A stretch of DNA of 36,515 nucleotides. It comes from a virus. The stretch's first letter is position 1; each line of letters starts with the position of its first letter. The notes under the pieces are model-generated. The model was not told the DNA's origin, ran no database searches, and saw only the letters and a list, made by a program, of their open reading frames with translations. Below are positions 2,174 to 36,515 of the stretch, piece by piece. Location of the stretch: the IMG/VR virus record IMGVR_UViG_3300044961_000317, positions 1 through 36,515 of that record. One strand, written 5' to 3'. The position numbers were made by a program, and so were the translations under genes.

Positions 2174-3499
2174 ATGATCCTCGCCACCCGCCACGGCGCC
2201 CGGGAGATCCGGGCGTTCCCGCAGACGATGAGCAACCCTCCGTCACGGTCGGCCGCCGGGTACGCGTCCGGGCAGGTGCGCGTCGATGCGGCGGCGGCGG
2301 CGGGGTTGCCGGCGGTGGACGCCGCGATCCGCGGTGCGAGCGAGGCGGTCGCGTGCCTGACCCTGCGGGTGTGGCGCGGGGAGGGCACGGAACGCAGGCG
2401 GGTCACGACGACGTGGCAGGCGCGGCTCCTGGCGCAATCCCGCCCGAACCCGGCGCAGACGTGGTTCGAGCTGTGGGAGACGCTTGAGGCGTCGATGACC
2501 GCCCGCAGGAACGCTTTCCTGTGGCGTGACGTCGCGGACGGCCGGGCCGTCGGGTTGTGGGCGTTGCACCCCGACCAGGTCGCTGTCGGGGTGGACGACC
2601 GGGACGGGTCACCCCGGTACCGGGTGATGGTCGGTGGCGGGTGGATCGACCCGACGCGGTCAGCGGGACGTAACCCGCTGCTGGTTGAGGCCGGGCCGGA
2701 CGTGGTGCTGCACGCGAAGGGGCCTGGTGGTGGCGGGACGCTGGTGGCGCCGTCACCGGTCGAGGTGTTCCGCGCGAGCCTGGGGGCGGCGATCGCCCAG
2801 CAGGCGTCGCAGGAGGCGTTCTACTCGCGTGGCACCGCCGGCGGGCACGTGATCGTGTTCCCGCAGGACCTCCCCGCACGGGCGGTGAGGGAGGCGAAGG
2901 CCCTGTGGGACGAGTCGAACGCCGGGGTGGGGAACGCGCACGGCACCCGCGTGCTGTCCGGAGGCGCGACCATCACCCCCGTCACCGTGTCCCAGTCGGA
3001 CGCCCAGTTCGTCGAGACCGCCCAGCTGTCGATCGATGACGCCGCACGGATCTTCCAGTGGCCCGCGAGCCTCATCGGCGGCGGCGCCGGGGTCGGGCAG
3101 CGGGGCGCGCCGTTGAGCCCCGAGCATGAGATGACGCGGATGGTCCGGTACTGCCTGACCCCCAGGTTGCGCAGGTGGGAGGCGATCCTCGCCGCTGACC
3201 CGGTGCTGTTCGGGCCGGGCTCCCGCGACTACCCGGCGTTCGACCGTGAAGGGTTGATCCGGGCGGACGTCCAGTCTCAGTCCGCCGCTGACGCGCAACT
3301 CGTCCAGGCGGGGATCCTGCTCGTCGACGAGGCCCGCGCCCTGCGCGGGCAGCCGCCTCTGCCGAACGGGTGGGGGCAGATCCCGCAGATCATCCCGGTC
3401 GGTGGCACCGCGTTCGGTGTCCCCGACCCGAATGTGGCTCCACCCGTGACATCGGATCCGGGTGGACAGTCAACCAACCAGGCCGCCCAGGAGGGATGA
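2174..3499 (+). CDS. Portal protein, HK97 family
   Basis: A 441-residue protein that would form the dodecameric ring at the capsid vertex through which DNA enters. Typical family features are the early segment GLPAVDAAIRGASEAVACLTLRV, the WFELWETLEASMTARRNAFLW helix region, the stretch ending in LIGGG (IDDAARIFQWPASLIGGG), and a Pro/Gly-rich C-terminus. A second in-frame ATG lies at 2228, but the upstream residues include FPQ, which sits within the N-terminus of related portals, so the longer start is preferred. Neighbours (terminase, protease, capsid) agree. Confidence 0.92.
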   Translation: MILATRHGAREIRAFPQTMSNPPSRSAAGYASGQVRVDAAAAAGLPAVDAAIRGASEAVACLTLRVWRGEGTERRRVTTTWQARLLAQSRPNPAQTWFELWETLEASMTARRNAFLWRDVADGRAVGLWALHPDQVAVGVDDRDGSPRYRVMVGGGWIDPTRSAGRNPLLVEAGPDVVLHAKGPGGGGTLVAPSPVEVFRASLGAAIAQQASQEAFYSRGTAGGHVIVFPQDLPARAVREAKALWDESNAGVGNAHGTRVLSGGATITPVTVSQSDAQFVETAQLSIDDAARIFQWPASLIGGGAGVGQRGAPLSPEHEMTRMVRYCLTPRLRRWEAILAADPVLFGPGSRDYPAFDREGLIRADVQSQSAADAQLVQAGILLVDEARALRGQPPLPNGWGQIPQIIPVGGTAFGVPDPNVAPPVTSDPGGQSTNQAAQEG

Positions 3500-5933: not shown

Positions 5934-7370
5934 GTGGCCAACTACCCGCGCACCCCGACCGCCGCGGAGGTCGGCGCGGACCCCGCCGGGACCGCCGCTA
6001 GCGCCGTCTCCGCCCACGAGTCGGACACGACGAACGTCCACGGCATCGCCGACACGTCGGCGCTCGTCCTCACCAGCGACGCCCGCCTCTCGGATGCCCG
6101 GACGCCGACGGCGCACGCCGCGTCACACGCGGCCGGCGGGTCGGATGCCGTGAGCGCCATCGGGATCGCCGCCCAACCCCTGAGCGACGCCCGGTTCTCG
6201 GAGCAGCCGCTCTACTTCGACTTCTCGGACGCGTCGATGTTCTCGACGGCGCGCGGGGAGTGGACGGGCTCCGGAACCGCGCCGACCGTCACGGGCGGGT
6301 ACATGACCCCCGGCGCGACCGGCGAAGGGTTCTGGTGGCGCGCAGCGGAGACGTTCTCCGACGGCGAAGTCGTCGTGAAGTACCGCACCGCGACGGCCCC
6401 GGCTGACGGGGGCGTGCTTCTGCGCGTCCGGAACGTCAGCAACCTCATACTTATCGACGCCATTCCGACGAGGGTTTCCGTGTGGGTCCGGACCGCCGGG
6501 ACGTGGAACGAGCTGGCCTACACGTCGCACACGCTCACCGCGAACACGGACTACTGGATTCGGGCGCGATGCGAGGGGAACACGATCACCGCGGAGGTTT
6601 TCACCGCGGACCCCGCTACCGGGGTCGTCCCGCTCTCCACGGTCCGGCACACGCTCACCGGATCGCACGCGACGAACCACGGCGTAGGGGTGAAGGGCGC
6701 CGCGGGGATCTATTGGGCTGGCACGACCCCGGCCGAATACGACTCGCGCTTCGACGACCTCTACATCCGCCCGATTCCCCGGCCGCTCACCTCATATGCT
6801 CGGTTGCAGCACGGCCAGATCGGCGTCCCGTTCTACACCCCACAGATCGTCCACGCGATGCCCGCGGACGCGGTAGACGGTGACGGGGCGCAGCTCATCA
6901 CCGGCGTGGCATACATGCGGTTCTTTCAGGCCCCCGCGACGGTCACGGTCACGAAAGCCCGGTACCTCATCGGCAGTCAGAACGGGGCGACACCGACGGC
7001 GTTCCGCATGGGGCTCTACGAGGTGGACCCCGTGACGTTCACCGGGTCCCTCGTCGCGCGCACCGCCGACGACCCGACCGGGCTTACCGCCGGGACGTAT
7101 ACGGAGGTGCAGCGGGCGTTCTCGACGGCCGGCGGCTACCCGGCGAGCTACACGATCCGCGAGGGCAGATGGTACGCGTCCGGGCTTGTAGGGGCGGCGG
7201 CGACGATGCCACGCGCCTACGGGAAAACATACGTCGTCTACACAAGCCCGACGGCTATCGCATGGTCGAACTACACGAGCGACCTCCCGGTTACGTTCTC
7301 ATCCGACTACGACGCGCACGGATGGTTCCTCACGGGGTCACCGTCGCCCGCCGTCTACTTCGCGGAGTGA
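5934..7370 (+). CDS. Fibre-like structural protein, possible head fibre
   Basis: A 478-residue protein. The N-terminal part carries the fibre-type motif TSDARLSDARTPTAHAASHA followed by AGGSDA, common in phage tail-fibre and other surface proteins. Residues about 95-255 look like a jelly-roll or concanavalin-type domain (PLYFDFSDAS to NTITAEVFTADP), and the rest is another Tyr/Thr/Gly-rich beta domain. The gene lies between capsid and head-tail adaptor genes, not with the tail tip genes, so a capsid-attached fibre or decoration protein is a reasonable inference. Codons ending in A or T are somewhat commoner than in its neighbours, a hint of transfer. Confidence 0.6.
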   Translation: MANYPRTPTAAEVGADPAGTAASAVSAHESDTTNVHGIADTSALVLTSDARLSDARTPTAHAASHAAGGSDAVSAIGIAAQPLSDARFSEQPLYFDFSDASMFSTARGEWTGSGTAPTVTGGYMTPGATGEGFWWRAAETFSDGEVVVKYRTATAPADGGVLLRVRNVSNLILIDAIPTRVSVWVRTAGTWNELAYTSHTLTANTDYWIRARCEGNTITAEVFTADPATGVVPLSTVRHTLTGSHATNHGVGVKGAAGIYWAGTTPAEYDSRFDDLYIRPIPRPLTSYARLQHGQIGVPFYTPQIVHAMPADAVDGDGAQLITGVAYMRFFQAPATVTVTKARYLIGSQNGATPTAFRMGLYEVDPVTFTGSLVARTADDPTGLTAGTYTEVQRAFSTAGGYPASYTIREGRWYASGLVGAAATMPRAYGKTYVVYTSPTAIAWSNYTSDLPVTFSSDYDAHGWFLTGSPSPAVYFAE

Positions 7371-22351: not shown

Positions 22352-23100
22352 GCACTGACCTCCCCGCGGTCCGCGACCTGGACGGCATCACGCAGCGCGC
22401 AGCGGACCCCGCCGAGTACCTCGTGACGTGCTGCGAGCGGGCGAAGACGTGGCTCACCGCGGCGCTCGAGTCCGGGGACATCGGCATCGACCAGATCGTC
22501 GAGGTCAAATCCCAGGCGGAGGCGATCCGCGTCTACACCGTCCAGAAGAACCTGGGGCGGGACGCGGAACTCGCCGCGCAGGAGATCGTCCGGCGGGCTG
22601 AGCGCGGCATCGGCCTCGCCATCCGCAAAGGCCAGCAGGACGGGACGATCGCGCGTCCCGGAGTCAGCGTCACGACGTCAAATGCGCTCGGTGAGCGCAT
22701 TTTCAAACCGTCGGAGTTCGTTCCGCGACATGATCTGCGCAGCGACATCGGCAACGGGGCCTACGGCATCTACGCGATGACGGATGGCGTGTCGGACGAG
22801 CAGTTCGAGCAGGCCATCGACGAGGCCAAGGCCGAGAAGAACCTGAGCCGCGCGAACGTCGTCCGCAAAGCGAAGGGCACCCCCCCGCCCGAGCCGCGCA
22901 GCGAGTGGCACCACAAGCGCCGCCGCATCGACCACTACCGGGTCCTCGCGGAGACGGAGGCGACCCTTGACGGTCTCGCCGCCGGACTGCGGCTCATCGA
23001 CATCGACGCGATCCCCGAGGTCGAGCGCCCCGAATGGGCGGACCGGCTCCGCCAGGCGCTCCGCCCGATCACCGCGTTCATCCGGGAGGTCAGCACATGA
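22348..23100 (+). CDS. DNA-binding-like protein upstream of the ParB-box gene
   Basis: A 250-residue protein. Residues about 20-100 are helical and end in EIVRRAERGIGLAIRKGQQ, a segment recalled from proteins of mobile elements in actinobacteria. A later stretch (GIYAMTDGVSDEQFEQAIDE, then AKAEKNLSRANVVRK, about 137-175) looks like the HTH-type region of ParB/KorB-like proteins. The C-terminus is helical. It overlaps the ParB-box gene by 4 bases, so the two may work together in DNA binding, replication control or partition. Two palindromes lie inside the gene at 22641-22660 and 22680-22702. Confidence 0.6.
   Translation: MSTDLPAVRDLDGITQRAADPAEYLVTCCERAKTWLTAALESGDIGIDQIVEVKSQAEAIRVYTVQKNLGRDAELAAQEIVRRAERGIGLAIRKGQQDGTIARPGVSVTTSNALGERIFKPSEFVPRHDLRSDIGNGAYGIYAMTDGVSDEQFEQAIDEAKAEKNLSRANVVRKAKGTPPPEPRSEWHHKRRRIDHYRVLAETEATLDGLAAGLRLIDIDAIPEVERPEWADRLRQALRPITAFIREVST
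22641..22660. repeat. Inverted repeat inside the DNA-binding-like gene
   Basis: CGGGACG (22641-22647) and CGTCCCG (22654-22660) with a six-base centre ATCGCG. It stands 19 bases before a second, longer palindrome in the same gene. Confidence 0.45.
22680..22702. repeat. 23-bp palindrome inside the DNA-binding-like gene
   Basis: Perfect 10-bp arms AAATGCGCTC (22680-22689) and GAGCGCATTT (22693-22702) around GGT. The AT-rich ends are unusual in this GC-rich gene. It may be a binding site for the ParB-box protein, the repressor, or the gene's own product; the coding sequence there reads SNALGERIF. Confidence 0.6.
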
Positions 23101-23876
23101 CCAGCAACCGGCGTCTCACCCGCGCCTCCAGCGTCCAGTGGGTCCGCGTCTCCGACATCCGCACCTCCACGAACGCGCAACGCGAACTCCGCGCCTACAA
23201 GGCGGAGAGCATCGCCACCGAGTTCGACCCCGACAAGCTCGGCATCCCCGTCGTCAACAAGCGCGGCGGCCGGTACTGGGTGATCGACGGTCAGCACCGC
23301 ATCGAGGCGCTCCGCCGCATCGGGTACGAGGACCAGCTCATCGAATGCCAGGTGTACGAAGACCTCACCGAGAAGCAGGAGGCCGAGATGTTCCTCGGCC
23401 TGAACACGCCTCTCGCCGTGAAGCCGATCGACAAGTTCCTCGTCGCCCTGACCGCGCAGCGCCCACGGGAACTCGGGATCGCCCGGGCCGTGCAGGCTGA
23501 GGGCCTCGCAGTCGGCAAGGGCAACGGGAAGATCATGGCGGTCACCGCCCTCGGCCGCGTCTACGACGTCGCCGGGCAGGAGGCCCTCGGCCGGACGCTG
23601 CGGATCATCCGCGACGCGTTCGGTGACACGGGAATGACCGCCAACCTGATCCAGGGCGTCGGCCTCGTCACCCACCGGTACAACGGGGAACTCGACGACG
23701 AATACGCGGTCACGAAGCTGTCGTCGGCGCGCGGCGGACTCAGCGGGCTGCTGGCCAAGGCGGAGGTGATCCGCCGGCAGGTGGGCCGGCCGAAGCCGCA
23801 CTGCATCGCCGCGGCCGTCGTCGAGACCGTGAACTCTGGCCGCGGCGGCCGGAAGATTCAGGACTGGTGGTCGTGA
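23097..23876 (+). CDS. ParB-box (ParB/Srx fold) protein
   Basis: A 259-residue protein starting at the ATG that overlaps the previous stop. The N-terminal domain shows ParB-like features: NAQRELRAYKAESIATEFDP (26-45), then PVVNKRGGRYWVIDGQHRIE (51-70) with the DGQHR box, where such domains bind nucleotide. The C-terminal half is helical and unlike chromosomal ParB, and resembles phage ParB-like nuclease-domain proteins. A role in partition, replication control or nuclease activity cannot be chosen from sequence. It forms a coupled pair with the preceding gene. Confidence 0.8.
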   Translation: MTSNRRLTRASSVQWVRVSDIRTSTNAQRELRAYKAESIATEFDPDKLGIPVVNKRGGRYWVIDGQHRIEALRRIGYEDQLIECQVYEDLTEKQEAEMFLGLNTPLAVKPIDKFLVALTAQRPRELGIARAVQAEGLAVGKGNGKIMAVTALGRVYDVAGQEALGRTLRIIRDAFGDTGMTANLIQGVGLVTHRYNGELDDEYAVTKLSSARGGLSGLLAKAEVIRRQVGRPKPHCIAAAVVETVNSGRGGRKIQDWWS

Positions 23877-28018: not shown

Positions 28019-28692
28019 CCACGGAACCGCTGTTCAAGGTGTTGGGCCCCAACCGGGAAGCCGTCCACGGCGGGACGGGGCGTTGGCCGGAACCCGGGGA
28101 GTGGCATCGGGTGACGGGCCCGTTGGAGGCGTGCCGGAACGGCCTGCACTTGTGCCGCACCCGGGACCTCCCGTACTGGGTGCTTGAGGGCGCGGTGATC
28201 TGGCGGGTGGAGGTCAACGACCGGTTCACGCGCGTCGACGAGACGGACAAGGTGGTGGTCCGTGAGGCGCGCCTCACTGAGCCGGTGGGGGTGTTGACGG
28301 CACGGGTGCTCAGGTTGTTCGCGGCGGATTGCGCGGAGTCGGTGGCGCACCTGCATGGTCGTGACCCGCGGTGCATGGAGGCGATCCGGGTGGCGCGCCT
28401 GTTCGCACACGGGTTGACGACCCACGCTCACATGAAGGCCGCCGGGTTCGCCGCCGGGGCCGCCGCCGGGTTCGCCGCCGGGGCCGCCGCCTGGGACGCC
28501 GCCTGGGCCGCCAGGGACGCCGCCGGGTCCTCCGCCAGGTACGCCGCCGGGGACGCCGCCAGGTACGCCGCCGGGTCCTCCGCCAGGTACGCCGCCGGGG
28601 ACGCCGCCAGGTACGCCGCCATGGACGCCGCCGGGGACGCGCAGGGCGAGAACCTGCTCGCCCTCACCGCACGGTACGGGAGCGTGGACTGA
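28015..28692 (+). CDS. DUF7666-like protein with Ala-rich tandem repeats
   Basis: A 225-residue protein from a GTG overlapping the previous stop. The N-terminal half resembles a domain, recalled as DUF7666, found in phages: GEWHRVTGPLEACRNGLHLC (one of its hallmarks is C-x-NG-H-C), then VLEGAVIWRVEV and DKVVVREARL. A helical region with HLHGRDPRCMEAIRVARLFA follows. The last 85 residues are repeats of AGSSARYAAGDAARYA type, encoded by a 48-nt repeat. The end (QGENLLALTARYGSVD) is non-repetitive. Function unknown. Confidence 0.65.
   Translation: MTTEPLFKVLGPNREAVHGGTGRWPEPGEWHRVTGPLEACRNGLHLCRTRDLPYWVLEGAVIWRVEVNDRFTRVDETDKVVVREARLTEPVGVLTARVLRLFAADCAESVAHLHGRDPRCMEAIRVARLFAHGLTTHAHMKAAGFAAGAAAGFAAGAAAWDAAWAARDAAGSSARYAAGDAARYAAGSSARYAAGDAARYAAMDAAGDAQGENLLALTARYGSVD
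28439..28620 (+). repeat. Ala-coding tandem repeat, 48-nt unit
   Basis: Two perfect 48-nt units (28519-28566 and 28567-28614) plus 6 bases, preceded by more diverged GCCGCCGGG-based copies from 28439. All are multiples of three, so the frame is kept and repeat number can vary without breaking the protein. This is not a CRISPR: units are contiguous and coding. Confidence 0.85.
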
Positions 28693-29093
28693 TGACCGGG
28701 CCCGACGTCATCCAGCACGCCCGCGACGCGCTGGCCGCATGGAACCGGGCCAGCCCGTACGACGCCCCTGAGCCTGAGTGGGTCCTGGCTTTGCGCCTAG
28801 TGGTCAAGGCCGGGGACGCCGGGCACCTCATCGACACGCGGGCGATCCAGGTGAACAGGCAGGCGGCCGCTGAGTGGCTGGACGAGGAGCAGGAGAAAGA
28901 CGGCGTCTCCTACGACGGCATGGTGGAGGCGCTTGCGCTCGGGATGGCCGTGGTGCGCTCCGTCTCCGACGCCGTGGAACGGGAGGGTCCCGTCGAAGGC
29001 CCTGACGGGACGCTCTACGACCCGACGGACAGGTCAGGGCCTGTCATCCGCCGTCGTCGTCTGGGTGGCGCCGCGGAACGGGAGGCCCGGTGA
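28692..29093 (+). CDS. Hypothetical protein, paralogue D
   Basis: A 133-residue protein whose ATG shares a base with the preceding stop. The opening (GPDVIQHARDALAAWNRASP through WVLALRLVVKAGDAGHLIDT) matches the protein at 27725. The rest is acidic and helical (AAEWLDEEQEKDGVSYDGMV) with a basic end. Function unknown. Confidence 0.65.
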   Translation: MTGPDVIQHARDALAAWNRASPYDAPEPEWVLALRLVVKAGDAGHLIDTRAIQVNRQAAAEWLDEEQEKDGVSYDGMVEALALGMAVVRSVSDAVEREGPVEGPDGTLYDPTDRSGPVIRRRRLGGAAEREAR

Positions 29094-29311
29094 CCGTCTA
29101 CCCCATCTCCCAGTGCCTCGCGTGCATGGGGTCCGGCCAGATGAAGGACTGGCAGGCCCGCACCTGCACCCCGAGCGGGTACGCCCGGTGCACCCGGTGC
29201 AACGGGGTCGGCCGCACCATCATCCGCAACGGCGACCACCGGCCCGCGTACGGCACCAGCTGGAACCAGACGGTCCTCGAGATCCCGGACGATGAGGAGA
29301 CGGCGGCGTGA
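29090..29311 (+). CDS. Zinc-finger protein, DnaJ-type CxxCxGxG repeats
   Basis: A 73-residue protein starting in a GTGA overlap. Two cysteine motifs CLACMGSGQ and CTRCNGVGRT match the paired CxxCxGxG units of DnaJ-type zinc domains, which bind one zinc. The C-terminus is acidic (EIPDDEETAA). A role in protein or nucleic-acid binding is inferred; the partner is unknown. A similar small protein occurs at 33805. Confidence 0.7.
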   Translation: MTVYPISQCLACMGSGQMKDWQARTCTPSGYARCTRCNGVGRTIIRNGDHRPAYGTSWNQTVLEIPDDEETAA

Positions 29312-29523
29312 CCGTGAGCGAGCTGCTCGGGCTGCCGCCCCTCGTGACGCGCCGCGCCCTCCGGGACGCCGGCGTCGCCCGCGTCGACCTCGACCGCATC
29401 TGGGCGCGGTCCGAGCAGGTCATGGTCCCCGGCAGCCGCGTCGTCTACGTCCGCCGCGAGGACGTCGACCGACACCTGGTCGTCGTCCCCGTCAACGGGG
29501 TCCGCCCCAGGCAGGCCGCATGA
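29308..29523 (+). CDS. Possible excisionase (recombination directionality factor)
   Basis: A 71-residue protein directly before, and overlapping, the integrase. The sequence (SELLGLPPLVTRRALRDAGV, then GSRVVYVRREDVDRHL) has the shape of a small winged-helix or MerR/Xis-like DNA-binding fold: a helix pair, then a wing with VVYVRREDVDRHL, typical of excisionases where the final strand precedes a helix. Position next to int supports an Xis role; it could also be an unrelated regulator. Confidence 0.55.
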   Translation: MTVSELLGLPPLVTRRALRDAGVARVDLDRIWARSEQVMVPGSRVVYVRREDVDRHLVVVPVNGVRPRQAA

Positions 29524-30797
29524 GCCCCAGCGTCAACATTCTCCGGCGCGCGAAGATCGACGGGCGCTGGCAGTGGGTCACCAGGGGGCGCATCCCCCGC
29601 GGCGTGGAGGTCCGGTGGCACGTCCGGTTCCGGCCCGGCGGCCGTGGCCCCACCCACAACGCCGGCACCTTCCGCACCCGCGCCGAAGCGGAGGAACGCG
29701 CCGCGTGGGTCGCCCGTGAACTCGCCGCCGGCCGGTTCCCGGACCTCACCGTCAACCCACCGACACCGCCCGCCCCGGAACCCACCGGCCCGACCGCCCT
29801 GGACGTCCTCGACGCGTACACCAGGTGGCGGTCCCGGAAGGTCGGCGCGGCCCGCCGCAACACGTTCCACCAGACCCGCGCGCACCTCGCCGCATCACCC
29901 CTCGCCGGCCAGCTCGCCGACCAGGTCACCGCCCACGCCGGGCAGGACTGGGTCGACGACCTCACCGAACCGACGGTCACCGACGACGGCGCGGTCCGCC
30001 CGGGGCTCGCCCCGAAGAGCATCCAGATGCACCTCGGTGTCCTCAGGGCGGCGTGGCGGCGCGCCGCCATCCACCCGAACCCGTGGGCGGACGTGATCCC
30101 CCCACGCCGCGAACACGACGACGATGATGTCCGCGCCCCCCGGTGGGACGAGTGGAACGCGATCCTCGGCGGCGTCCCCCGCCGCCACGTCGACACCGTC
30201 ATCGTCCTGGAAGCAACCGGCCTGCGGATCGGTGAGCTGGAGCGGCTCACGTGGGGGGCCGTCGACTTCGCCGGCGCGGCGATCACGGTGCGGGCAGGCA
30301 AGACCAAGAGCGCCCGGCGCCGCGTCCCCCTGCCGGATGCGGCCGCCGACGCGGTCGCCCGGCAGACGCCCCTCGAGGACCGCGACCCCGACGCGCCCGT
30401 GTTCGCGCACCTGCGGTCCCAGACGGTGCGCGGCGCGATCGCCCGGGCCTGCACCCGCGCCGGTATCCCCGGGTACTCGCCGCACTCCCTCCGGCACCGG
30501 TACGCGTCCCGGCTGGTCGCCGCCCGCGTCCCCCTCCCCCTCGCCGTGGAGATCTTCGGGCACGCGAACCCGACCGTTTTCCTCAACACGTACTCGCACG
30601 TCCTCATCGACGAGCCCGCGTGGCGCCTCACCGAGCTGCGCCGGGACGTCGCCCGCCTCTACGGGATGGACGAAGACCTGCACGGGGTTGCACCCGTGTC
30701 ATCACACTCGACTGAGCCCAGCCCCACCAACGAGAAAAGCCCCGCACACGGCGGGGCTTTCACGGAGGTGGAGGATAGCGGATTCGAAGGGAGCTAG
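29520..30797 (+). CDS. int: Tyrosine integrase
   Basis: A 425-residue site-specific recombinase. The N-terminal arm-binding-like region (VEVRWHVRFRPGGRGPTHNA, 29-48) is followed by a core-binding helical domain (92-190) and a catalytic domain with Arg236 in ATGLRIGEL, Lys261 or Lys263 in RAGKTKS, HSLRHR (His322, Arg325), His348 in FGHANP and the nucleophile Tyr358 in NTYSH. All expected residues are present, so it should be active. The last 35 residues run through a terminator hairpin and a tRNA-like stretch, so they are probably a by-product of attP lying in the gene end. Start is the ATG overlapping the previous stop. Confidence 0.93.
   Translation: MSPSVNILRRAKIDGRWQWVTRGRIPRGVEVRWHVRFRPGGRGPTHNAGTFRTRAEAEERAAWVARELAAGRFPDLTVNPPTPPAPEPTGPTALDVLDAYTRWRSRKVGAARRNTFHQTRAHLAASPLAGQLADQVTAHAGQDWVDDLTEPTVTDDGAVRPGLAPKSIQMHLGVLRAAWRRAAIHPNPWADVIPPRREHDDDDVRAPRWDEWNAILGGVPRRHVDTVIVLEATGLRIGELERLTWGAVDFAGAAITVRAGKTKSARRRVPLPDAAADAVARQTPLEDRDPDAPVFAHLRSQTVRGAIARACTRAGIPGYSPHSLRHRYASRLVAARVPLPLAVEIFGHANPTVFLNTYSHVLIDEPAWRLTELRRDVARLYGMDEDLHGVAPVSSHSTEPSPTNEKSPAHGGAFTEVEDSGFEGS
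30689..30706 (+). repeat. Putative integrase arm-type site, left
   Basis: TGCACCCGTGTCATCACA lies within int, about 60 bases before the likely core. It is matched at 17 of 18 positions by the repeat at 30874-30891 in the same orientation. Paired direct repeats on both sides of a core are what arm-type binding sites of a tyrosine integrase look like. Confidence 0.55.
30736..30760 (+). terminator. Intrinsic terminator inside the int 3' end
   Basis: Perfect 10-bp stem AAAGCCCCGC (30736-30745) and GCGGGGCTTT (30751-30760) with loop ACACG, A-rich before and T-rich after, so it could stop transcription from either side. It overlaps the last codons of int and immediately precedes the attP core candidate. 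In a lysogen it would insulate prophage and host at the junction. Confidence 0.75.
30767..30788. other. attP core candidate, tRNA-3'-end-like
   Basis: Read on the minus strand, this stretch gives TTCGAATCCGCTATCCTCC and then ACC: a T-loop TTCGAAT, the 3' half of a T-stem (CCGCT), the 3' half of an acceptor stem (ATCCTCC), one discriminator base and CC. The other half of a tRNA is absent, so it is not a tRNA gene. A piece identical to the 3' end of a host tRNA is the usual attP core. The acceptor ATCCTCC is like many actinobacterial tRNA-Ser genes, though these usually have G at the next base, so the tRNA type is tentative. Confidence 0.65.
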
Positions 30798-32767: not shown

Positions 32768-33246
32768 ACGGCCTGCGCGAGCTGCGCCTGGTGGTCCCCG
32801 GCCGCCCCGTCCAGTGGGCCCGAGCCACCGGCGGCCGCACCGTCCGGCACTTCACCCCCGCCAAGCAGCGCACCTACGCGCAGCGCATCCAGACCGAATG
32901 GATCCACGCCGGCCGGCCCCGGCTGGAGGACGGCCCCATCGTCCTGGTCTGCCGGTTCATCCTCGCCCGCCCCAAGGCGCACTGGACGTCGCGCGGGGAG
33001 CTGTCCGCCACCGGCCGGCGCTCGTACTGGCCGACCGGCCGCCCCGACCTCAGCAACTACGTCAAGCAGGTCGAGGACGCGTTGAACGGCCTCGCGTGGG
33101 CGGACGACAGCCTGATCGTCGGGTACGGGTCGACGAACAAGCGGTACCAGGAGCGCCCCGACGAACCGGAGCGCGTCGAGATCACCGCCCACGTCCTGAC
33201 CATGGACTGGACGCGCCGGCCAGAGCCGGAGGCGGTGGCCGCGTGA
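32764..33246 (+). CDS. RusA-like Holliday junction resolvase
   Basis: A 160-residue protein from a GTG overlapping the preceding stop. The RusA signature RPDLSNYVKQVEDALNGLAW then ADDSLIVGYGSTNKRY (93-128) includes metal-binding Asp95, Asp105 and the Asp114/115 pair. The first half (LRLVVPGRPVQWARATGGRT; VLVCRFILARPKAHW) is the usual beta part. It would cut four-way junctions formed during phage recombination, fitting with the RecT-like protein. Length is slightly above the classic 120. Confidence 0.9.
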   Translation: MNGLRELRLVVPGRPVQWARATGGRTVRHFTPAKQRTYAQRIQTEWIHAGRPRLEDGPIVLVCRFILARPKAHWTSRGELSATGRRSYWPTGRPDLSNYVKQVEDALNGLAWADDSLIVGYGSTNKRYQERPDEPERVEITAHVLTMDWTRRPEPEAVAA

Positions 33247-33422
33247 CGTGCGACCGCTGCCACACGCGGCCAGCCGATGTCGTCGCGATCGACGAGCCCG
33301 ACAACGACGGGGCCCTCCTGTTCGGCGACCAGGTCACCGGCCGGATGCTCTGCGGGCCATGCCTTGAGGTGACGGCCGCCGACGGCCCGTGGCATGACGT
33401 GATCCACCTGGAGGCCGCGTGA
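33243..33422 (+). CDS. Small zinc-ribbon protein
   Basis: A 59-residue protein in GTGA overlaps on both sides. Two cysteine pairs, CDRC near the N-terminus and CGPC near residue 40, would bind one zinc. The rest is acidic (AIDEPDNDGALLFGDQVTGR). Nucleic-acid or protein binding is possible. Confidence 0.65.
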   Translation: MTCDRCHTRPADVVAIDEPDNDGALLFGDQVTGRMLCGPCLEVTAADGPWHDVIHLEAA

Positions 33423-33808
33423 CCCTGCCTCTCAGCCCAGCCGCGCGGGAAGCGGTGGAACGACTCCGCGCCCGGCGGGCCGCCCAGGAACACAAGCAGC
33501 GCCTGCTGCGGGCACAGCTCGCCGCGGAACGAAACCACCGGGAGGCCGTCGCCCTCGCAGCCGAGGCTTCGACCGACACCACCACCCGGGTCGGTGCGAC
33601 CGGCCGGGCGATCATCCAGCACCTCGCCCTCCACCCCGGCCACACCACGAACCAGGTAGCCCACCACCTCGGCCTCACCCACATTGCGACCAGCAAGGCG
33701 ATCAAACGCCTCGCAACAGCCGGAGTCGTCACCAACACCACACCAGGATGCGGACGCGGGAACGTCGCCCACTGGGCGGTCACCGGAACCACGCGGGAGG
33801 CGGCGTGA
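33419..33808 (+). CDS. Winged-helix DNA-binding protein
   Basis: A 129-residue protein. Residues about 1-50 are a basic coiled coil (AREAVERLRARRAAQEHKQR). Residues about 60-120 form a MarR/IclR-like winged helix: GRAIIQHLALHPGHTTNQVA, HHLGLTHIATSKAIKRLATA and GVVTNTTPGCGRGNVAHWAV, the last being the wing. It likely regulates phage genes by DNA binding. It starts in an overlap with the zinc-ribbon gene. Confidence 0.7.
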   Translation: MTLPLSPAAREAVERLRARRAAQEHKQRLLRAQLAAERNHREAVALAAEASTDTTTRVGATGRAIIQHLALHPGHTTNQVAHHLGLTHIATSKAIKRLATAGVVTNTTPGCGRGNVAHWAVTGTTREAA

Positions 33809-34017
33809 CCGTGACCATGCCGCCCCCATCACCGAAGGGCTGGCGCCCCGACCACACCCACACCGGCCGGTGCGGCGCCCGGCCAGCGCCGCCCGCCGAG
33901 GAGTGGCGCACGTGCCGCACCTGCTGGGGGCAGCAGCGGATCTGGGCGAACGGCAGCCACGGCCCCGGGTTCTACCCGTGCGCCACCTGCCTCGGCACCG
34001 GAACGGAATGGCGATGA
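33805..34017 (+). CDS. Small zinc-binding protein, DnaJ-like cysteines
   Basis: A 70-residue protein starting at a GTG in an overlap. CRTCWGQQRIW and CATCLGTGTEW are paired CxxCxG motifs as in the protein at 29090, here separated by a short loop (ANGSHGPGFYP). The N-terminus is Pro/His-rich. Function unknown. Confidence 0.65.
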   Translation: MTVTMPPPSPKGWRPDHTHTGRCGARPAPPAEEWRTCRTCWGQQRIWANGSHGPGFYPCATCLGTGTEWR

Positions 34018-34053
34018 AGCACACCATGCACACATCTACCAGGACCGGTGGCT

Positions 34054-34326
34054 GTGACCGTGAGCACCACGGCAAGCATCACCGCGGGCACCCCCCCGCG
34101 GACCCCACTTGCAGGGGAAACCACCCAGGATTTGGATGCGGCCCGCGCCCGCACGGCCAGGCGCGCCGACATGTTCCGGGACGCCGCGCACCGCGTGCAC
34201 ACCCACTACGAGGTCCGGCGGGAACGCTGGGGATCTGCGGAAGTCACGGTCGTCGCGCAGCGCGGCTTCGACTTCGCGGACCAGTACTGGAGCGCGCACG
34301 ACGCCGTGCTGGAGGCCCGGCCGTGA
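34054..34326 (+). CDS. Hypothetical 90-residue protein
   Basis: AGGA (34041-34044) is 9 bases before GTG 34054, which I prefer; in-frame GTGs also lie at 34048 and 34060. The N-terminus is Thr/Pro-rich; the rest is helical (ARTARRADMFRDAAHRVHTH, then YEVRRERWG) with a terminal helix (FDFADQYWSAHDAVLEARP). It is separated from the preceding gene by 36 bases. No known family. Confidence 0.6.
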   Translation: MTVSTTASITAGTPPRTPLAGETTQDLDAARARTARRADMFRDAAHRVHTHYEVRRERWGSAEVTVVAQRGFDFADQYWSAHDAVLEARP

Positions 34327-34556
34327 CCGACCCCGTCGACCCGCCGGACGCCGAGCAGATGATCCGCGCCCTCCGACGCGTCCACGCGATCGCCGGCCAG
34401 CTCGCAGACCACGACGTCGCCCTCCTCAAGCTCGGCATCCAGCACCAGGAAGACACGATCCGCGGGCTCATGGACACGTGCACCGAACAACACGATGAGC
34501 TCCTGCGCGCGGATCTCGAGCACGCCCCGAAGGGAGCCGCGTCGTGGACTACGTGA
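34323..34556 (+). CDS. Hypothetical 77-residue helical protein
   Basis: Starts in a GTGA overlap. It is largely helical: AEQMIRALRRVHAIAGQLAD, HDVALLKLGIQHQEDTIRGL and MDTCTEQHDELLRADLEHA. The end overlaps the next gene by 13 bases. Position before the replication genes suggests the same module. Function unknown. Confidence 0.6.
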   Translation: MTDPVDPPDAEQMIRALRRVHAIAGQLADHDVALLKLGIQHQEDTIRGLMDTCTEQHDELLRADLEHAPKGAASWTT

Positions 34557-34897
34557 AGCTCTGGACCACCCTGCTCACCCACCCGAAGCAGGCCCGCACC
34601 AGCGACAAGGCGTGGCGGACGCTCACCCTCGCCTGGATGTACGCGGGGGAACACGAGACCGACGGACGCATCCCACCGGAGGCGAAACCGTTCATCCGGC
34701 TCACCCCCACCATCGAGCGGGAACTCGACGAGCTCGGATGGATGCACCGCAACGGCCACGGGTGGGTCCTGAACGACTGGGCGGACCACCAGGTCGACGC
34801 CGAGGAGGTCCGCGCGAAACGAGACCGGCGGCGCGCGAACGACCGGGACCGGCAGGCCCGGCACCGCGCCCGCCAGAAGGGACCCGACGATGCGTGA
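34544..34897 (+). CDS. Replication-initiator-like winged-helix protein
   Basis: A 117-residue protein. The first 90 residues (DYVKLWTTLLTHPKQARTSD, KAWRTLTLAWMYAGEHETDG, RIPPEAKPFIRLTPTIEREL, DELGWMHRNGHGWVLNDWAD) follow the N-terminal winged-helix layout of phage replisome-organiser or DnaD-like proteins: start KLWxxLLxHPKxxxLS, a turn with DGxIP and a wing with LNDW. The C-terminus is a long basic helix (EEVRAKRDRRRANDRDRQAR). The iteron array begins just downstream, so it may bind it. Confidence 0.7.
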   Translation: MDYVKLWTTLLTHPKQARTSDKAWRTLTLAWMYAGEHETDGRIPPEAKPFIRLTPTIERELDELGWMHRNGHGWVLNDWADHQVDAEEVRAKRDRRRANDRDRQARHRARQKGPDDA

Positions 34898-34910
34898 CAC
34901 GCACACCCTG

Positions 34911-35000
34911 TCACGCGTGACGTCACGCGTGACGCACCAGCACATGTCACGCGTGACGTCACGCGTGACGCACCAGCACATGTCACGCGTGAGTCACGCG
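34911..35000. repeat. Iteron array, candidate replication origin
   Basis: Five copies of the palindrome TCACGCGTGA at 34911, 34923, 34947, 34959 and 34983, and a partial copy at 34994. Spacing alternates 12 and 24 bases, giving a 36-nt unit repeated twice (34911-34946, 34947-34982) plus a part. A homopurine tract with AGGAAG repeats (35018-35042) and a less GC-rich stretch follow. The array lies between a winged-helix and a helicase-loader-like gene, as expected of a phage origin. It could alternatively be an operator cluster. Confidence 0.75.
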
Positions 35001-35017
35001 CTCTACACCGCGCTCGC

Positions 35018-35042
35018 GAGAGGAAGAGGAAGAGGAAGAGAA
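35018..35042 (+). repeat. Homopurine tract next to the iterons
   Basis: Twenty-five bases with only A and G on the plus strand, made of AGGAAG repeats. It starts 18 bases after the last iteron fragment. Such a tract can be an unwinding or triplex-prone element at origins; here that is an inference from position. Confidence 0.55.
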
Positions 35043-35101
35043 CACCTAACCCCATCCCGCACGGAAAGTAATCGAGGGCGCGCGCGAACGCACCGCACGG
35101 A

Positions 35102-35629
35102 ATGGGGGTCATGGACATGAGCCCGGAGGAACAGCGCCGCCGACGCGCCGTCCAACGCCTCGCCCACCTCTGGCCCACCGGCTGGACCAAGCACAAGGCC
35201 GACGCGTACCACGACGCGATCAGCGACCAGCACGCCGACGACGTCGAACAGGCATGCGTCGAGCTCGCCCGCACCTGGACGGAGAAGGTCCTGCCCCCGC
35301 CCGCCAAGGTCAACGAGCTCGCCGGCCAGTACGCCCGCCGGCGGATGGCCGAACACCAGGCCCGCCTCGAGCAGGCCCAGGCCGCCCGCCAGGAGGACGC
35401 CGACCGGCCCGCCGGGCGCCTCCTCGTCGGCAACCGCCTCTGCCACACGTGCCGCGGCGACCTCCTCTACCTCACCGCCGAACGAATCCTCTGGTGCGAG
35501 AAGTGCCGCGCCGCCCAAGTCCTCAACGAGACCGACGGCAAGACCCGCATCAAGGTCACCAACCAGGAGTACCAGGACCTCTACCTCCGCCCCGAACCCC
35601 GCCTCAACAGCGTCAGGGACGCCGCGTGA
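35102..35629 (+). CDS. Helicase-loader-like protein with zinc ribbon
   Basis: A 175-residue protein; starts at 35102, 35111 and 35117 are possible, and GGGGG (35104-35108) is well spaced for 35117. The first 75 residues (LWPTGWTKHKADAYHDAISD, QHADDVEQACVELARTWTEK, VLPPPAKVNELAGQYARRR) follow the pattern of G39P-type loaders, where an acidic helix pair is followed by PP-x-xxEL. A charged linker leads to a zinc ribbon: CHTCRGDLLYLTAERILWCE then KC, with two CxxC pairs. It may load the host replicative helicase, since no phage helicase was found. Confidence 0.6.
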   Translation: MGVMDMSPEEQRRRRAVQRLAHLWPTGWTKHKADAYHDAISDQHADDVEQACVELARTWTEKVLPPPAKVNELAGQYARRRMAEHQARLEQAQAARQEDADRPAGRLLVGNRLCHTCRGDLLYLTAERILWCEKCRAAQVLNETDGKTRIKVTNQEYQDLYLRPEPRLNSVRDAA

Positions 35630-35844
35630 CCCGGGAGCAGCTCGCCCACGCGATCCTCGAACGCCTCGCCGCGGAACTCACCCCCCGCCAGTTCGACGCG
35701 TACCTCCTCCGCGAAGTCAGCGGCTACACGTTCCAGCGCATCGCCGACGAACTCGGGTGCACCAGGCAAACCGCACACGACCACTGGGCCCGCGCCCGCG
35801 ACCACGTCGCCCGCCTCCTCCACGACGGCGAGTGGCCCCAGTGA
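35626..35844 (+). CDS. Sigma-region-4-like HTH protein
   Basis: A 72-residue protein starting in a GTGA overlap. ELTPRQFDAYLLREVSGYTF, QRIADELGCTRQTAHDHWAR and ARDHVARLL form a sigma-70 region-4-type HTH with no region 2. It could bias host RNA polymerase, act as an anti-repressor, or activate the late genes as terminal transcription regulators of many phages do. It is the last DNA-binding gene before the genome end. Confidence 0.7.
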   Translation: MTREQLAHAILERLAAELTPRQFDAYLLREVSGYTFQRIADELGCTRQTAHDHWARARDHVARLLHDGEWPQ

Positions 35845-36134
35845 CCGACAGCGACGACCGGCACTGGCTCCGGTCCGCCCAACGCCGCGCCGAGGAACTC
35901 GCCATCGCCCAATCCGAACGGCGGGCACGCAACGAAACGGAACCCACGGACCGGCTCAAGCACCTACCCGGCAGCCCCGCCGGCGACGAGGAACGCCTCC
36001 GCAAGATCCCCGTCTCCGCCCCGGGCGGGTGGGGCGGCGTCATCCCCGGCACCCACCCCGAACGCGAAGCGATCCGCCGCGCCGCGACGTCCGACCGGCG
36101 CGGTAACGTGGACACGTCACGGCGCGGGCCCTGA
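35841..36134 (+). CDS. Hypothetical 97-residue protein before the HNH gene
   Basis: Starts at a GTG in an overlap with the HTH gene. The first half is helical (WLRSAQRRAEELAIAQSERR) and the second half is Gly/Pro-rich (KIPVSAPGGWGGVIPGTHPE) with a basic end. It lies 4 bases before the HNH gene. Function unknown. Confidence 0.6.
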   Translation: MTDSDDRHWLRSAQRRAEELAIAQSERRARNETEPTDRLKHLPGSPAGDEERLRKIPVSAPGGWGGVIPGTHPEREAIRRAATSDRRGNVDTSRRGP

Positions 36135-36138
36135 CGAC

Positions 36139-36459
36139 ATGCCAGCGCCCGACGTGTCACCCGAGCCCGCCCAACCCGGCGGGCTTCGTCGTTCCATGGG
36201 CCAATACCGACTCACCGCCGGCGGGAACCTCGCGCCCCTCCACGCGCCCCGCCCCCGCGACCCCCGCACCAGCAGACGCCACCAGCAGGCGCGCCTCGAG
36301 GCGATCCGACGGCAGCCCTGGTGCTCGAGGTGCGGGGCACGGCACGACCTACAGCTCGACCACCGAACCCCACTCGACGCCGGCGGCGCACCATTCGACC
36401 CCGCCAACCACGACGTGCTCTGCGGACCGTGCAACCGCGCCAAGAGCAACGCCGCATGA
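36139..36459 (+). CDS. Terminal HNH endonuclease
   Basis: A 106-residue enzyme. CSRCGARHDLQLDHRTPLDA (62-81), with His75 in LDHR, then GGAPFDPANHDVLCGPCNRA (82-101) with Asn90, complete an HNH fold with two CxxC pairs (62/65, 95/98). HNH proteins beside the terminase genes are needed with terS and terL for cos cleavage in several cos phages. Here it would adjoin the small terminase once ends are joined, so a packaging role is likely, rather than homing. Confidence 0.88.
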   Translation: MPAPDVSPEPAQPGGLRRSMGQYRLTAGGNLAPLHAPRPRDPRTSRRHQQARLEAIRRQPWCSRCGARHDLQLDHRTPLDAGGAPFDPANHDVLCGPCNRAKSNAA

Positions 36460-36515
36460 CACAACCGACCACGCGCAAGGGGGGGGACCTACCCCTACCC
36501 CTCCCACACGAAGAG
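36460..36515. other. Right end, probable cos region
   Basis: No gene is seen here. A run of eight G (36479-36486) is followed by ACCTACCCCTACCCCTCCC, making a strand-asymmetric G/C cluster that could fold, and then CACACGAAGAG. It is likely part of the packaging signal between the HNH and small terminase genes. The exact end is not verifiable from this sequence. Confidence 0.4.

Follow-up and report, generated by a model that had tools for sequence, protein, structure and literature searches.

The segment 34910-35089 of the window, which denotes the whole 36,515-nucleotide stretch of viral DNA analysed here (IMG/VR record IMGVR_UViG_3300044961_000317), is very probably the theta-type replication origin of this actinobacterial phage, acting together with the adjoining initiator. 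By analogy with known systems, it would be an iteron origin of the lambda O, SPP1 and pSK41 kind, placed just after the initiator gene and not inside it. The analysis itself shows the array, the family to which the upstream gene product belongs, its predicted fold, the order of gene, iterons, tract, AT stretch and box kept in relatives, and the recurrence of the iteron in other replication genes. As in iteron origins, identical candidate initiator sites lie at the initiator gene and are adjacent to a low-GC, strand-asymmetric stretch.

The iteron array and the DNA behind it

The features of the locus are as follows (evidence in parentheses).
34544-34897, + strand: initiator gene, 117-aa winged-helix protein, N-terminal DNA-binding domain only (PHROG, AlphaFold2, VIA-align)
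34892-34898, + strand: half iteron GCGTGAC, covering the stop codon of the initiator gene at 34895-34897 (sequence)
34910-34921, no strand assigned: iteron 1, GTCACGCGTGAC (sequence, chance count)
34922-34933, no strand assigned: iteron 2, GTCACGCGTGAC (sequence, chance count)
34934-34945, + strand: 12-nt spacer GCACCAGCACAT (identical copy at 34970-34981; TRF)
34946-34957, no strand assigned: iteron 3, GTCACGCGTGAC (sequence, chance count)
34958-34969, no strand assigned: iteron 4, GTCACGCGTGAC (sequence, chance count)
34970-34981, + strand: 12-nt spacer GCACCAGCACAT, copy 2 (sequence, TRF)
34982-34992, no strand assigned: iteron 5, GTCACGCGTGA (sequence, chance count)
34993-35000, no strand assigned: degenerate iteron 6, GTCACGCG, at a pitch of 11 (sequence)
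35018-35042, + strand: all-purine tandem tract, 25 nt, hexamer period (run length, controls, TRF)
35043-35076, no strand assigned: spacer at the place of the relatives' AT-enriched stretch (relatives' AT profile, local GC)
35077-35089, no strand assigned: GGCGCGCGCGAAC box, fitting the ACGCGCG-type box of relatives (box counts in relatives)
35102-35629, + strand: downstream gene, 175 aa, helical N half, weak zinc-ribbon match (Pfam, AlphaFold2)

The palindrome TCACGCGTGA is present in five exact copies within 34911-34992, starting at 34911, 34923, 34947, 34959 and 34983 with spacings of 12, 24, 12 and 24. No other copy occurs in the 36,515-base record, the chance expectation was 0.12, and no shuffle contained five copies. 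TRF described 34909-35000 as 2.6 copies of a 36-nt unit with a 98% match, the unit consisting of two 12-mers GTCACGCGTGAC and one 12-nt spacer GCACCAGCACAT; the full 12-mer is found in four of the five copies, and the fifth reads GTCACGCGTGA. These results confirm the five palindromes, the alternating spacing and the 36-nt unit of the initial annotation. Its suggestion that the spacing places protein dimers on similar helical faces did not hold, as a 12-bp step turns the helix by about 51 degrees (24 bp, 103 degrees; 36 bp, 154 degrees).

The initiator frame ends 13 bases ahead of iteron 1, at 34897, and the array is outside it. Both frames are open across the array, with SRVTSRVT in the ORF 34890-35120 and VTRDVTRD in the initiator frame past the stop. 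The spacings in multiples of 3 and the VTRDVTRD frame behind the stop suggest that the array was formerly inside the initiator reading frame. The same observations, and the fact that the array is coding in many relatives, would also fit a repeat selected as a peptide and not as DNA. This reading is very improbable, because the initiator frame stops ahead of the array, the DNA palindrome is exact, and the counterpart of the array lies between annotated genes in phages Taheera, Anatole, Sonali and Dori. In pSK41, moreover, the Rep boxes are located inside rep and the linker encoded by them is dispensable (PMC5703833).

As a single DNA strand, 34905-35002 folds far better than shuffled sequences (z -6.9). 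This would suit a structured RNA or DNA in which adjacent pairs form a long stem serving as an attenuator or priming site. Such a function has little probability, since any palindrome array folds in this way, relatives hold other, weaker palindromes at the same place, and the DNA following the tract folds no better than shuffled sequences (z -0.07).

No homopurine/homopyrimidine run of the record is longer than the tract at 35018-35042 (the next reaches 14), and this tract outranks each of the 320 control stretches taken from the window, which bears out the pure A/G tract described initially. TRF gave a period of 6 with 3.7 copies, and the letters are AGAGGA. The GC content of the 40 bases from 35019 (35019-35058) is within the lowest 0.5% of the record. 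The tract corresponds to the tandem tracts of 4-7-nt period in relatives, and 35043-35076 is a candidate unwinding element. The window's tract contains no canonical G-quadruplex motif, and no hairpin was found behind it.

The cumulative GC skew, proposed earlier as a check, makes no turn at 35 kb and falls on to the record end, which counts against an origin, with the site being near the end of the record. No DnaA box (TTRTCCACA with up to one mismatch) occurs within 15 kb of the array; the whole window has five, compared with 4.1 expected.

The flanking genes and the rest of the record

The product of 34544-34897 matched two families of phage replication initiation proteins, PHROG 3926 (E 1.1e-19, residues 3-112) and PHROG 2447 (E 1.9e-12), whose profiles of about 300 residues are not reached in full length by a protein of 117. 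Many annotated relatives likewise have about 110-130 residues, so that a short protein is the usual form in the nearest of them. At about 33% identity, distant relatives are found in Mycobacterium, Arthrobacter and Propionibacterium phages; the RefSeq label is "replication initiation protein" in several of these records and hypothetical protein in others. Protein-only scans gave no close relatives for either of the two window proteins, and there was no plasmid match.

The AlphaFold2 model (39 aligned sequences) is a confident winged helix with a pLDDT of 91.8, in agreement with the earlier description of a winged-helix gene. In the structure comparison, RepA_N initiators of staphylococcal plasmids were at ranks 2, 6, 7 and 8 (identity of the matched structures as RepA_N, PMC7145576), and VIA-align gave Z scores of 6.8-7.3 over about 76 residues, a level that common winged helices reach. 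There was no match to RepA_N PF06970 and none to any Pfam family at an E value of ≤1. Because other winged helices also reach a Z of about 7, the likeness of the model to RepA_N is a resemblance and not membership. The iteron letters do not obviously follow the winged-helix sequence, so that specific recognition is putative, which counts against the origin reading, and inspection by eye detected no shared recognition helix among the proteins with the same iteron.

The product of 35102-35629 had been called helicase-loader-like. It matched A2L_zn_ribbon with an E value of 0.0073, below the cutoff, gave a poor model (pLDDT 58), and had no PDB, fold, family or phage match. The family of SPP1 G39P-type loaders, PF11417, had no match at an E value of ≤10 in the record, in a search of limited sensitivity that scored the control genomes only below the cutoff. 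The loader label is thus unsupported rather than disproved. Directly behind this gene, a small sigma-70 region-4-like protein is encoded at 35626-35844.

The absence of a replicative helicase and a polymerase, also claimed initially, stands in that no DnaB_C match was found in the record and no replicative helicase or polymerase among the main ORFs scanned, with the qualification that the record may be a fragment. Replication by the host machinery is therefore likely, subject to the record being complete, and the initial suggestion that the two small proteins recruit the host replisome is plausible. Elsewhere, a 12-base tandem repeat, GCCGCCGGGTAC, occurs in about 17 copies at 28438-28640 within the ORF 28371-29093.

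A ParB-like/DUF6551 protein is encoded at 23034-23876, and the array might accordingly be read as a parS centromere by which the prophage would be maintained like a plasmid. That is highly unlikely: the best Pfam match of this protein is DUF6551, its gene is 11 kb from the array, no chromosomal-type parS is present within the window, and the integrase gene at 29292-30797 points to an integrated prophage.

Relatives of the locus

By protein similarity to the initiator, 56 viral contigs were collected. Most of them have the same layout of gene, iterons and tract; in some, the reading frame continues across the array and encodes a C-terminal domain. In relatives retaining the gene, an array is present at the same place with different letters, so that the earlier check on whether it would be absent came out in favor of the origin. 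Between the family gene and the next gene, Taheera, Dori, Sonali, Anatole and B22 have about 190-280 bp of DNA that contains other repeats, often with a pitch of about 12 nt, followed by a short-period tract. About 40 divergent relatives have, at this place, different iterons, a tandem tract of 4-7 nt, AT-enriched DNA and an ACGCGCG-like box. This comparison strongly supports an origin located beside the initiator gene. The earlier interpretation therefore stands as to a putative origin beside the initiator; the loader label and the same-face spacing were dropped.

Of 50 loci compared with control stretches of their own, 39, among them the window, had the tandem tract (period 4-7) in first place. 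About 10 of the 50 relatives have no outstanding tract in the stretch tested, which counts against the origin reading. The letters of the relatives' tracts include CCCGA, CCCGT, CCCGTA, CCCCGT, CCCAGT and ACGG/ACGT. Behind the tract, the AT content of 43 loci exceeded the locus mean by 20 points in the first 10 nt and by 9 points at 30-40 nt, decaying over about 40 nt, and an ACGCGCG-type box followed 21-73 nt after the tract, with the exact ACGCGCG in 10 of 40 loci (0.5 expected) and the pooled box pattern in 26 of 40 (5.4 expected); these box and AT figures are descriptive and not a test, as the patterns and regions were picked after inspection and some loci are akin. Exact 8-mer counts were a weak iteron detector, reaching the 5% level in 15 of 50 loci, because the iterons are degenerate in many relatives.

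A canonical G-quadruplex motif lies exactly at the tract in 24 of 40 loci (L013-L065; 0.1 expected); taking the initiator gene as the plus strand, all 24 motifs are on the minus strand. As a general principle the G-quadruplex was rejected, since the window and the ACGG/ACGT-type tracts are without the canonical motif. A hairpin behind the tract was found in 8 of 40 relatives (1.1 expected), all in one subgroup. Six relatives (L003 and L017 [2885-3242], L014, L030, L036 and L037) carry an extra ORF directly behind the winged-helix initiator gene; that of L030 is endonuclease-like by motif, and in L003 and L017 the tract is shifted to 359 bases behind the initiator stop.

The iteron was also searched for by DNA alone, as two GTCACGCGTGAC in tandem or at a 24-nt pitch, and 47 loci besides the window were found. 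By reading of the open frames, 45 of these are in or directly behind a replication-type gene; many are near copies of one proteobacterial type, so that only about ten can be counted as independent. The exceptions, which count against the origin reading, are L108, with an unclear ORF, and L069, where the same double palindrome (7234-7294) lies in a long ORF that is relaxase-like by reading of frames and encodes VTRDVTRD. Nine of ten representative proteins matched PHROGs families of replication initiation, replisome organizer, DnaD-like or primosomal proteins, one of them weakly (E 0.0065). One locus, L087, mirrors the window, with gene stop, array, tract and a GCGCGCG box; its copies behind the stop are at 0, 35 and 59, and these offsets do not all keep to multiples of 3. 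In a Nocardioides contig (L072, 3860-4018), GTTACCGGTAAC and GTCACGCGTGAC iterons flank one CCCGT/CCCGA tract.

These relatives also bear on whether the palindromes are operators through which the winged-helix protein, as a transcription regulator, controls the downstream early genes. Palindromic sites suit a dimeric repressor, and the next gene begins some 100 bp past the array. An operator array is nevertheless unlikely, given that the protein families are replication initiators and not repressors, that the arrays lie behind or inside initiator genes and not at promoters, that a tandem tract and an AT-enriched stretch consistently follow, and that a scan of 33000-36515 for promoters of the sigma-70-like type found none. 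Autoregulation in addition to the origin role is possible.

Known origins and a possible common plan

The RepA_N systems of pSK41 and pTZ2162 (PMC5703833; PDB 4pql, 4pt7, 4pta, 5kbj) resemble the window in the predicted winged-helix fold of the N domain, which binds repeated boxes just 3' of its own coding part, where the window array is similarly placed. They differ in that the window array is behind the stop codon, its iterons are GC-rich, and PF06970 is not matched. The C-terminal domain required by pSK41 Rep is also missing from the window initiator, which counts against an origin.

As in the lambdoid O/ori-lambda system (PMC7466680, PMC5043065), iterons are followed by a purine-asymmetric tract at an initiator gene. 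The AT-rich region of lambda is strongly purine asymmetric (PMC5043065), and in our comparison the purine tract after the annotated iterons of lambda, whose origin is proven, was the strongest tract of 2.5 kb. The lambda iterons, however, are 18 bp long and inside O, with AT-rich DNA behind them, whereas the window array follows the gene, and nothing resembling lambda P was recognized downstream in the window. SPP1 oriL, located within gene 38 of the origin-binding protein and containing an AT-rich element, shares by published description an initiator gene, direct repeats, a low-GC stretch and a small downstream gene (PMC6316719). Unlike SPP1, with its loader G39P and helicase G40P, the window has no G39P family match and no DnaB-type helicase. 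The mycobacteriophage prophages with RepA likewise belong to actinobacterial phages, with a presumed origin within or next to the initiator gene; that RepA has 320-350 aa and is accompanied by parABS, and its authors saw no repeats in the regions examined (PMC7157519). The rep gene of TP901-1 has no outstanding tract, so the plan of iterons, tract, AT stretch and box is not universal.

From the arrangement of the window we infer binding, opening, helicase recruitment and origin activity as follows. The winged-helix protein would bind each palindromic iteron, probably as one dimer per palindrome, and the filled array would bend and strain the DNA. Strand opening would begin in the purine tract together with the AT-richer DNA that follows, and the host helicase would then be recruited by the initiator, the downstream protein or a host loader.

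Tentatively, and with the odds rather against it, the relatives may share a common origin plan of iterons, tandem tract, AT stretch and ACGCGCG-like box, in which the tract is kept for its periodicity more than its letters, acts in strand opening or helicase loading, and in many relatives is G-quadruplex capable on one fixed strand. The new element would be a tract variable in sequence and conserved in periodicity. Within the open-access literature (subscription journals being outside it), no paper brings together iterons, a G-quadruplex and a phage replication origin, and among the replisome organizer and iteron papers no title or abstract describes this tandem tract; this silence is a weak indication of novelty.

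Most actinobacterial phages, to our knowledge, have no mapped origin. The shared plan would offer an iteron-independent signature for candidate origins in many phages, making a little-studied origin type recognizable, and could supply small test replicons consisting of the initiator gene and about 200 bp. Should the tract turn out to be essential, iteron origins would gain an opening or loading element that in many cases is tandem and GC-rich instead of AT-rich, which is unexpected from the textbook examples.
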